DNA of 64,000 nucleotides from Neobacillus sp. PS3-34 (GTDB lineage Bacteria > Bacillota > Bacilli > Bacillales > Cytobacillaceae), in contig NZ_CP133267.1 of the NCBI RefSeq assembly GCF_030915465.1, positions 4,453,001-4,517,000 of the forward strand. Reading direction: 5' to 3'. The position numbers and the translations under genes were made by a program. The notes under the pieces were generated by a model. It was not told the origin of the DNA. It ran no database searches and saw nothing but the letters and a program-made list of their open reading frames with translations. Position 1 is the stretch's first letter; the number at the start of each line of letters is the position of its first letter. Positions 12,124 through 14,216 of the stretch are shown piece after piece.

Positions 12124-12160
12124 AATATAAAAAGGCGGCATAGCCGCCTTTTTATATTTT
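12122..12160. terminator. Bidirectional terminator between yneQ and yneR
   Basis: An 18-bp perfect stem (12122-12139 with 12143-12160) around a 3-nt loop, AT-rich outside and GC-rich inside, serving both convergent genes. Confidence 0.92.
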
Positions 12161-12448
12161 ATGATAATTAAAAACAGGCTCCTTAGCCTCAGGATGGAAG
12201 TCAACATTTAAGTCATGTCCGTCAAAATACCAACTATCTTTTTCCTCAATGTAGTAAACAATTCCATCCTTTTCTGATTTCACACTCGCATCCACAGGTT
12301 CTTCATTTATAACACCGAGAGAAAAACCGCTCTGGACAGTACTGCAGCCACCATAACGGACAAAAAACTTCACATAATCTCCCTGTTTTAAGCTCATTTC
12401 TTTTTTATACCACTCTGATGCCTGATCACTAATATGTATTTTCATCAT
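12152..12448 (-). CDS. yneR: YneR, HesB/IscA-like protein
   Basis: 98-residue HesB/YadR/YfhF-family protein. It has the A-type Fe-S scaffold fold but only one obvious cysteine, in VRYGGCSTVQSGFSLGV, and lacks the C-terminal CGC motif of true IscA. AAGGAG lies upstream of the ATG. Function is unknown; a role in iron or cluster handling is inferred from the family. It is a useful contrast to the two HesB-like genes in this window that carry TGA at the equivalent cysteine. Confidence 0.85.
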   Translation of the reverse strand: MMKIHISDQASEWYKKEMSLKQGDYVKFFVRYGGCSTVQSGFSLGVINEEPVDASVKSEKDGIVYYIEEKDSWYFDGHDLNVDFHPEAKEPVFNYHKI

Positions 12449-12619: not shown

Positions 12620-12648
12620 AATGACTCCGTTTACCGGAGCCATTGGGT
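12620..12648 (-). terminator. Terminator overlapping the CapA-like gene end
   Basis: On the minus strand GGCTCCG (12641-12635) pairs with CGGAGTC (12629-12623) with one G.U pair, followed by ATTTTT; it includes the stop codon. Confidence 0.65.
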
Positions 12649-13778
12649 CATAAATTTATGGATTTCACGGTCCTTTGCTGCTGCGTTGGCAAGGCCATAA
12701 GATCCTGCCTGCTTGAGAGGGACGACTCGGTAGTTTTTAAGATGCTGCTGGGACACATAAGTAGGATTGAAAATAGGGTTTGATAACTCTATCTGTTGAC
12801 CTTTTTCACTTACATGCTTAGTAATATCCACTGTTGCCAACCCGCCTATATCTTTATAATCACGCATTTGGCCGGATATAAAATTACCTAAAGAGTAGAC
12901 AGCTAATACCCTTCTCCCATCTTTTGCGATAATCCATTGCATTGGCTGCAAAACATGAGGGTGCGATCCAAAAATCACGTCGACTCCTTCATTGGCAAGA
13001 AAATGGCCAGGTCCTTCTGTTGTTCGTTAGGATACCTCTGATATTCATTGCCCCAGTGAATGCTCATGATGACAACGTCCGCTTCCTGTCTAGCTCTATG
13101 GATTTCTTCCTTCATGCTGTCCCGATTAATAATATTCACAAGATATTTTTTCTCGAGGGGCACAGGGATTCCGTTTGTTCCAAATGTGTACGAAAGAAAG
13201 GCAAGTTTTATTCCGTTTTTACTAATGACTCTTAACCTCGACCTGTCTTTTTGGTCAGTAAAAGTGCCGACATGGGGGATGCCAATGCTGTCTAAATAAC
13301 GTGATTCAGATAGAATGCCTCGTTCTCCTTTATCAAGAGAATGGTTATTTGCTGTAGATACGATATCGACTCCCGCATTCTTTAATGCATCTGCCACTTC
13401 ATGGGGGCTGTTAAACATGGGATAGTTAGAAACCCCTAATTCCGTACCTCCAAGAATACTTTCTTGATTAGCTGTCACGATATTCGGCTTTCCCAATAAT
13501 CCATTTATATTTTGGAAAATAGGATTAAAATTATATTTCCCTCCACGGAAGGCATCCTCATAAACCCAGTCATGGATGAGGATATCTCCTATTCCTCCAA
13601 TCGTAACTTTCTCTGTTACATTTTTGCCCATAACGGTATATTGACGTGAAGAAAGGTTCTCTGAAGCATATACTTTTGTTTTTGCCTCAGCTTTTTGGTA
13701 TTGTTGAAAAAGCAGGGTAGAGGACAGGAACAAACAAATTCCTATCATCAATAAGGAAAAAGCTGTTTTATTTTTCAT
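12631..13778 (-). CDS. CapA-family (PgsA-like) metallophosphatase-fold protein, frameshifted
   Basis: Poly-gamma-glutamate synthesis CapA/PgsA-like protein, about 382 residues when repaired. Residues 5-25 form an N-terminal membrane anchor. Metal-site motifs GGIGDILIHDW, ANQES, STANNHSLDKG, SIHWGNEY and GSHPHVLQP are all present, the last in a second frame. One missing C in the GGCC at about 13005 (needs GGCCC) joins the two parts as DLA-HFLANEGVDVIFGSH. The enzyme may act in anionic polymer export or as an extracytoplasmic phosphoesterase; no capB/capC partners are nearby, so PGA synthesis is not supported. Confidence 0.85.
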
Positions 13779-13891
13779 AATTGCTCCTCATTTGCTGAAA
13801 ATTCAATGATAATCTCAAATTCTACTATAATATAATTTTTGGATTGCAAAAAGATGTTTTTTCAAAAACAATTTAATAAGAGGTGAAACAT

Positions 13892-14182
13892 GTGTTTAAG
13901 ATGACGGATAGTGCCTATAAAAGATTACAAACTGCACTTGAAAAAGAAAAAAACACACCAGAAGAAAAATTATTTATACGCTTAGGTATGGGCATTGGCT
14001 GAGGCGGTCCAAAGTTAAATCTGTCTCTGGAAGAGCAGATGCTTCAAAATGATCAGCTGTTTGAATTTGAAGAACTTCAAATCCTGATTCATGAAAAGGA
14101 TAATGTGTATTTCGATAATACCAAACTAGATTATACAAAGGACGTCTTTGGAAATGGTAAATTCCAATTGTTAAAAATATAA
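13892..14182 (+). CDS. HesB-like probable selenoprotein (in-frame TGA as Sec37)
   Basis: 96-codon gene starting at GTG 13892 (AGAGGTG five to seven nt upstream), with a single in-frame TGA at 14000-14002. Reading through gives IRLGMGIG-U-GGPKLNLSLEEQ and a complete C-terminus (FGNGKFQLLKI), the layout of the HesB-related (seleno)protein family, where the U position is Cys in other members. No indel is needed: the frame is open on both sides. A SECIS-like hairpin starts 16 nt after the TGA. An AAGAGGTGA site and a strong terminator frame the gene. Likely role: Fe-S or selenium-linked redox protein; exact function unknown. Alternative: a nonsense mutation. Confidence 0.8.
14019..14040 (+). other. 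SECIS-like hairpin of the first HesB-like gene
   Basis: 14019-14023 pairs with 14036-14040 and 14025-14027 with 14033-14035, leaving a bulged U at 14024 and a UGGAA loop (14028-14032). The loop begins 25 nt after the TGA. A bulged U and a loop with GG are the features recognised by SelB in the E. coli fdhF element. Confidence 0.65.
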
Positions 14183-14216
14183 AAAGCGGAAAACCTAAGA
14201 GGTTATCCGCTTTTTT
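14181..14216 (+). terminator. Terminator after the first HesB-like gene
   Basis: AAAAAGCGGA and AACCT pair with AGGTT and TCCGCTTTTTT with single unpaired bases between; six Ts at the end. Confidence 0.85.

Follow-up and report, generated by a model that had tools for sequence, protein, structure and literature searches.

Does the single TGA inside a short HesB-like reading frame of Neobacillus sp. PS3-34 stand for selenocysteine (Sec), or does it end the protein? The frame lies in a stretch of 64,000 nt, called the window hereafter (G000:C1:4453001-4517000), of a 4.9 Mb genome. Judging from sequence comparison, we consider it highly probable, close to certain, that the gene encodes a selenoprotein of the HesB/IscA family whose TGA is read as Sec. 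The argument relies on the conservation of the TGA, on coding constraint on its two sides, on a hairpin with paired changes, on the Sec genes of the genome and on co-occurrence with selA. The features of the locus are as follows.

13880 to 13885, plus strand: ribosome-binding-like site GAGGTG ahead of the GTG start (direct reading of the sequence)
13892 to 14182, plus strand: predicted HesB/IscA-like selenoprotein gene, 96 aa, Sec37, no Cys (PF01521 match, conserved TGA)
14000 to 14002, plus strand: TGA, predicted Sec codon, aligned with the first Cys conserved in A-type proteins (TGA conservation, profile alignment to AQ_1857 and HI1723)
14020 to 14039, plus strand: predicted bacterial SECIS hairpin, arms 14020-14027/14033-14039, bulged U 14024, loop UGGAA 14028-14032 (fold, silent-site constraint, paired changes, published constraints)
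14181 to 14215, plus strand: intrinsic-terminator-like hairpin and U run, one internal mismatch, overlapping the stop codon (fold energy against shuffles)

Reading frame and domain

From GTG 13892 to TAA 14180-14182 the frame contains one stop only, TGA 14000-14002, just as the original prediction had it. Translated, the frame gives 96 residues (VFKMTDSAYKRLQ...LGMGIG-U-GGPKLNLSLEEQ...FQLLKI) with U37 in the context MGIG-U-GGPKLNLSL and zero cysteines. Purine-rich sites lie at roughly the same spot as the ribosome-binding-like site in many of the printed homologues. The protein matches PF01521 (Fe-S_biosyn, HesB/IscA) over residues 3-85 with 36.0 bits, for a gathering score of 26.3, so that one single domain match crosses the TGA. 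Its scores against the two HesB-type selenium-linked NCBIfam models are well below their cut-offs.

The same match bears on a first alternative, according to which the UGA is an ordinary or leaky stop and the products are a peptide of 36 residues and, from ATG 14039, a protein of 47. An ATG-initiated ORF is indeed present at 14039-14182, yet the PF01521 match is a single one and runs across the TGA.

The terminator-like hairpin (-17.9 kcal/mol, z -5.71, 0 of 200 shuffles as good) is absent from the list of a simpler scan. Since this hairpin lies at the stop codon and the next sizeable ORF is on the opposite strand, the gene looks monocistronic. A promoter scan gave 4 matches for 2.7 expected, none of them close ahead of the gene on its strand; an Rfam scan of the 64,000 nt gave no match at gathering scores, and no tRNA was detected there by ARAGORN, the tRNA-Sec being located elsewhere in the genome. 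A further PF01521 protein, this one having Cys where the other has Sec (YGGCSTVQ), is encoded on the minus strand of the window at 12152-12448, about 1.5 kb before the Sec gene; this neighbour's family occurs close to the Sec gene at 36 of the 55 orthologue-type loci defined below.

Conservation of the TGA and coding constraint

The comparison with homologues that had been proposed as a check shows that relatives carry a TGA at the same site. Within the genus it is present in 4/4 genomes. Of the 193 family genomes, 156 give a match at E <= 1e-6 and 147 contain a TGA copy (the matches being listed to about E 1.7e-20, and 23 genomes having been searched afresh for the final count); the other nine matching genomes do so through stop-free stretches only, and the five of these that we translated gave four A-type proteins with a CGC motif and one divergent Cys form (L078). 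One TGA copy, that of G047, also has a TAA inside the match. Among named genomes, the TGA is found at the site in all 80 loci considered (the best 80 of 103 relatives; 72 read by script and 8 by eye), at 42-72% identity. Their hosts, mostly isolate genomes of bacilli, include Neobacillus, Mesobacillus, Cytobacillus, Robertmurraya, Bacillus infantis, Schinkia azotoformans and Halalkalibacter okhensis. Of the 397 genomes drawn from the order, 50 give a TGA match at E <= 8e-21, and 38 of these belong to other families; weaker TGA matches (E near 1e-13) in G234, G279, G355, G383 and G391 were left out of this count, and all five genomes have selA.

We then counted the differences between 30 homologues and the window at codon positions 1/2/3. 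The counts are 242/116/356 upstream of the TGA and 373/236/736 downstream of the hairpin, compared with 576/609/582 past the stop codon. This means that coding constraint acts on both sides of the TGA.

These counts decide against a second alternative, in which the TGA would be a nonsense mutation in a pseudogene or, through a sequencing error, a miscalled Cys codon. The assembly does contain several split genes, as described below, but the same TGA recurs in 147/193 family genomes, which shows that it is no miscall, and in 80/80 named loci, and the sequence past it remains under coding constraint. With a conserved TGA followed by conserved coding sequence, we ruled this alternative out and give it hardly any probability at all.

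The predicted SECIS hairpin

The hairpin with a bulged U and a UGGAA loop that had been described 16 nt past the TGA is present, and the spacing agrees with the predicted fold, in which the stem begins one base earlier than the arms listed above (with an A-U pair), that is, 16 nt after the TGA. Its energy alone is only mildly unusual and is weak evidence: the 54-nt stretch around it has z -1.44, with 16 of 200 shuffles folding equally well, and the hairpin by itself (-8.6 kcal/mol) has z -2.52, with 6 of 200 shuffles as good. It is the conservation across homologues that takes the hairpin well beyond chance.

Silent variation was examined in 31 loci (the window's own and 30 homologues, with a TGA in every one). 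Counting the codons from the TGA, codons +7, +8, +9, +11 and +12 do not show any silent change among the rows with the majority amino acid (25, 25, 31, 31 and 18 of the 31 rows): they are CTG in 25/25, TCT in 25/25, CTG in 31/31, GAG in 31/31 and CAG in 18/18, respectively. The loop codon +10 is GAA in 22 loci and GAG in 9. In the same loci, conserved Gly, Pro and Leu residues close by are encoded by 3, 4 or more synonymous codons each, and most other codons are variable; uniform two-codon residues also exist outside the hairpin, such as His +39 (CAT in 15/15).

Pairing was examined in 43 distinct rows (the 31 loci and 13 others, one duplicate being removed), of which 25 have the bulged U and 18 have no bulge. 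Thirty-nine rows form seven pairs out of seven and four rows form six, unpaired cells amounting to 1/175 in the bulged form and 3/126 in the unbulged form, a count biased towards the structure, the register having been picked row by row for most pairs. Pairing is kept through double changes at one pair of the bulged form (U21-A40/G21-C40) and at three of the unbulged form (C22-G40/G22-C40, G24-C38/U24-A38, A25-U37/G25-C37). The loop starts with UGG in 43/43 rows. In a stricter test, restricted to 22 of the 31 loci and to the bulged register, 94.8% of the cells are paired and the covariation score is 0.190, a value reached by none of 500 shuffles, the best slid version giving 0.140. Here double changes are seen at a single pair, a number that does not exceed that of the shuffles, and two of the five measures fail to beat the shuffles.

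A published bSECIS model allows a loop of 3-9 nt, a stem of 4-16 bp, a G within the first two loop positions, a UGA-to-loop distance of 16-37 nt and a minimum free energy <= -7.5 kcal/mol, as given in the accessible passages of PMC13188914. The predicted fold lies within these bounds, with 9 pairs and one bulge, a loop GGA, -8.6 kcal/mol and a distance of 26 nt; for the seven-pair version with the loop UGGAA the distance is 25 nt.

Coming back to the leaky stop, we note that it does not account for conserved silent sites in the hairpin, nor for the fact that TGA copies accompany selA (see below). Two separate ORFs were ruled out on the single domain match over the TGA and the conserved hairpin, and we regard this alternative as very improbable. 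In the selenoprotein reading, the hairpin at 14020-14039 would recruit SelB with Sec-tRNA-Sec during translation and the UGA at 14000-14002 would then be decoded as selenocysteine, yielding the 96-residue protein; we infer that Sec is actually inserted at this UGA.

Sec genes and other probable selenoproteins of the genome

The original prediction proposed to search the genome for selA, selB, selD and selC, and all four genes are present, so that neither this search nor the comparison of relatives refuted the prediction. Those for the three proteins score above cut-off: selA at C1:4449918-4451300 (541.9 bits), selB at C1:351054-352274 (324.4 bits) and selD at C1:4447971-4448896 (227.6 and 147.7 bits in two frames). 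The tRNA-Sec is at C1:711218-711310 (63.3 bits) and is called tRNA-SeC, anticodon tca, by ARAGORN. The start of selA is 17 kb before the hesB gene of the window; of 24 genomes picked because the two genes share one contig, 22 have them 9-19 kb apart and the other two 33 kb and 81 kb apart.

Three further selenoproteins are probable in this genome. SelD has an in-frame TGA in SSKAG-U-GCKIGP (G000:C1:4448866), and the alpha subunit of formate dehydrogenase has one in CNRT-U-HAPSVAGL (C1:4193684-4195627, L180), the match of the latter also crossing a TAG and a TAA near the start, where the frame shifts. We take these two TGAs to be the usual Sec sites of the respective proteins. The third is a second HesB-like protein, DGYG-U-GQPRIGLALDEP...TGHCC, encoded near C1:1389327-1389372 (L170:1358-1639, minus strand). 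Its gene is the second match (15.3 bits, E 0.65) of a model built from the window's hairpin, has a SECIS-like hairpin of its own (-12.9 kcal/mol) and has a homologue in L033. That the hairpin of the window led to another HesB-like selenoprotein in its own genome argues again for the identity of the window gene.

The assembly splits selB, selD and the Sec-type fdhA (regions L009, L019 and L180). Unrelated genes are split too, namely one for a transporter (presumably MntH-like) in the stretch that holds selB and a gene represented by two overlapping ORFs at 12631-13778 of the window (presumably CapA-like). Hence, the splits in the Sec genes are probably assembly indels; they may also reflect a real loss in this strain.

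Co-occurrence with selA

Sec use had been called rare in Bacillaceae, but it is common in the family studied here: selA is above cut-off in 172 of the 193 family genomes and in 181 of the 397 genomes drawn from the order. In the family, 144 genomes have both the TGA-containing hesB and selA, 28 have selA only, 3 the TGA copy only and 18 neither (p 2.4e-10); in the order, the corresponding numbers are 48, 133, 2 and 214 (p 4e-16), both tests counting related genomes as if they were independent.

Five genomes (G171, G175, G179, G452 and G523) have a TGA copy without selA above cut-off, and by sequence all of these copies belong to the sister type described in the next section. The 3.2 kb locus of G171 and G175 is identical to that of G051, and its protein is also encoded by Cytobacillus oceanisediminis 2691 on its plasmid pBO1. 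In G452 and G523 the sister gene is within a sulfur operon; the G179 genome has a completeness of 81%. A further copy in G452 has a stop before the TGA and, after a frame change, stops behind it, while the flanking sulfur genes stay open. Such decay of the Sec gene is the expected outcome where Sec decoding is absent. Two genes at the far end of this stretch also look shortened, and a wider decay of the region, beyond the Sec gene, is possible.

Orthologue type and sister type

The 80 named loci fall into 55 of the orthologue type (L089-L142 and L147) and 25 of the sister type, which has the motif LEES or LEET after Sec. Neighbour families were clustered by script, and those of the sister type were named, CsoR excepted, from plasmid pBO1. 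The neighbours of the orthologue type are chromosomal, with a MenI-like thioesterase and PlsY, and with further ones that we take to be YneQ-like and CapA-like. The sulfur families of the sister operon were found within about 6 kb of none of the 55 orthologue-type loci.

The sister gene stands at the end of a sulfur operon, with TusA, rhodanese and MBL-type genes in 18 of the 25 loci, DsrE-type genes in 15, TauE-type genes in 14, glutaredoxin in 10 and a metal-sensitive regulator, which we assume to be CsoR-type, in 10. All but one of the 143 genes of this operon lie on the same strand. A redoxin-like family, so named by its place on pBO1, occurs near both types (23 and 7 loci). On pBO1 (L177) the sister gene is at 213769-214044, between a rhodanese gene and a peroxiredoxin-family gene; no gene is annotated there, in a gene table which is itself incomplete. 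We also observed the sister type in a sulfur operon both on a plasmid and in genomes without selA above cut-off (L150, L151, L158, L162, L181, L182, L183 and L177).

In a tree, the 25 sister-type rows all fall in one clade (support 0.72), the orthologue node having a support of 0.016. Rooting on A-type proteins failed and the Cys homologue L078 fell inside the Sec group; we did not rely on this tree.

Proposed function of the Sec-HesB proteins

The Pfam match and a profile match to PDB chains point to a HesB/IscA-like fold for the window protein, and in the profile comparison the Sec column aligns with the Cys conserved in AQ_1857 and HI1723, two A-type proteins. The A-type Fe-S carriers (IscA/SufA/ErpA) have three conserved cysteines and use a C-terminal Cys pair. 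The window protein lacks these three cysteines, Sec replacing the first of them. As the protein has no Cys, Sec would be its sole strong nucleophile; and as the C-terminal Cys pair is missing with them, its sequence makes a classic role as Fe-S carrier unlikely.

From the genes around the sister type, located at the end of its TusA/rhodanese/DsrE/MBL operon, we tentatively suggest a sulfane-sulfur or related redox role for the group, a suggestion based on the sister type; the window gene stands by itself. Sec37 would handle a sulfane-sulfur substrate (as persulfide or selenopersulfide) or a peroxide, with an outside thiol as reductant. More broadly, it is conceivable, if on balance doubtful, that a large and unnamed group of Cys-free Sec-HesB proteins of Bacillales serves selenium-dependent persulfide handling, with a housekeeping form near selA and a mobile form in the TusA/rhodanese/DsrE/MBL operon, carried on plasmids and decaying as dead cargo in hosts without Sec decoding. 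The location of the sister type in a sulfur operon gives a concrete and testable hypothesis on the substrate.

A competing explanation, which we judge rather unlikely, is that the protein carries Fe-S clusters or iron as IscA does, Sec being a metal ligand and no sulfane-sulfur or redox chemistry taking place. It would fit the PF01521 domain and the alignment of Sec with the first Cys that A-type proteins conserve. However, Cys is absent from 54/55 orthologue-type and 25/25 sister-type proteins, so that the C-terminal pair is missing, and the sister type is located in a sulfur operon. Moreover, the title of a reference in PMC11406059 says that DsrR, which is an IscA-like protein from sulfur oxidisers, lacks Fe-S binding.

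Comparison with known systems

Lists of selenoproteins have included the HesB-like ones since 2006 or earlier (PMC1794560). In the accessible passages of the papers, 11 are counted in PMC1794560 and 90, in 86 organisms, in PMC5029168; the former gives 3 selenoproteins of 3 families for Bacillales, so that the order was already known to hold some. The passages on HesB-like selenoproteins from 2006 on that we consulted do not state a function. Our search of the open literature found no paper joining selenocysteine with Neobacillus or Mesobacillus, and titles and opening lines of abstracts on selenoproteins and Bacillaceae gave nothing on the topic.

With the HesB-like selenoproteins of TIGR01911 the window protein shares a HesB/IscA domain with Sec, and its UGGP fits UxGP, the motif given for this family in the accessible part of PMC13188914; UGGP itself is found in 75 of the 80 named loci, the remaining five having one substitution each. 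It scores 30.7 bits against TIGR01911 (HesB_rel_seleno), below the cut-off of 66.35; the second HesB-like protein of the genome is closer, at 52.1 bits, and also under the cut-off. NF038090 (IscA_HesB_Se), of the same domain family, aligns with residues 2-83 at 32.7 bits for a cut-off of 85. Because it scores below the cut-offs of these HesB-type selenium-linked models, we take the window protein to be a divergent subgroup of the known HesB-like selenoproteins. In fact it is under the cut-off of every NCBIfam 20.0 model that it matches, as are the four further proteins that we scored; genes of this type may therefore often escape annotation.

With the A-type Fe-S proteins IscA, SufA and ErpA the window protein shares the domain, as it passes PF01521 and its Sec occupies the column of a conserved Cys, but it contains no Cys and its score against TIGR00049 (A-type) is below the cut-off (46.5 for 58.8). 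With DsrR (PDB 2k4z) it has an IscA-like domain in common (profile match, E 0.00029); the literature passages on DsrR that we consulted do not mention Sec. The association with sulfur genes is a feature that DsrR shares with the sister type but not with the window gene.
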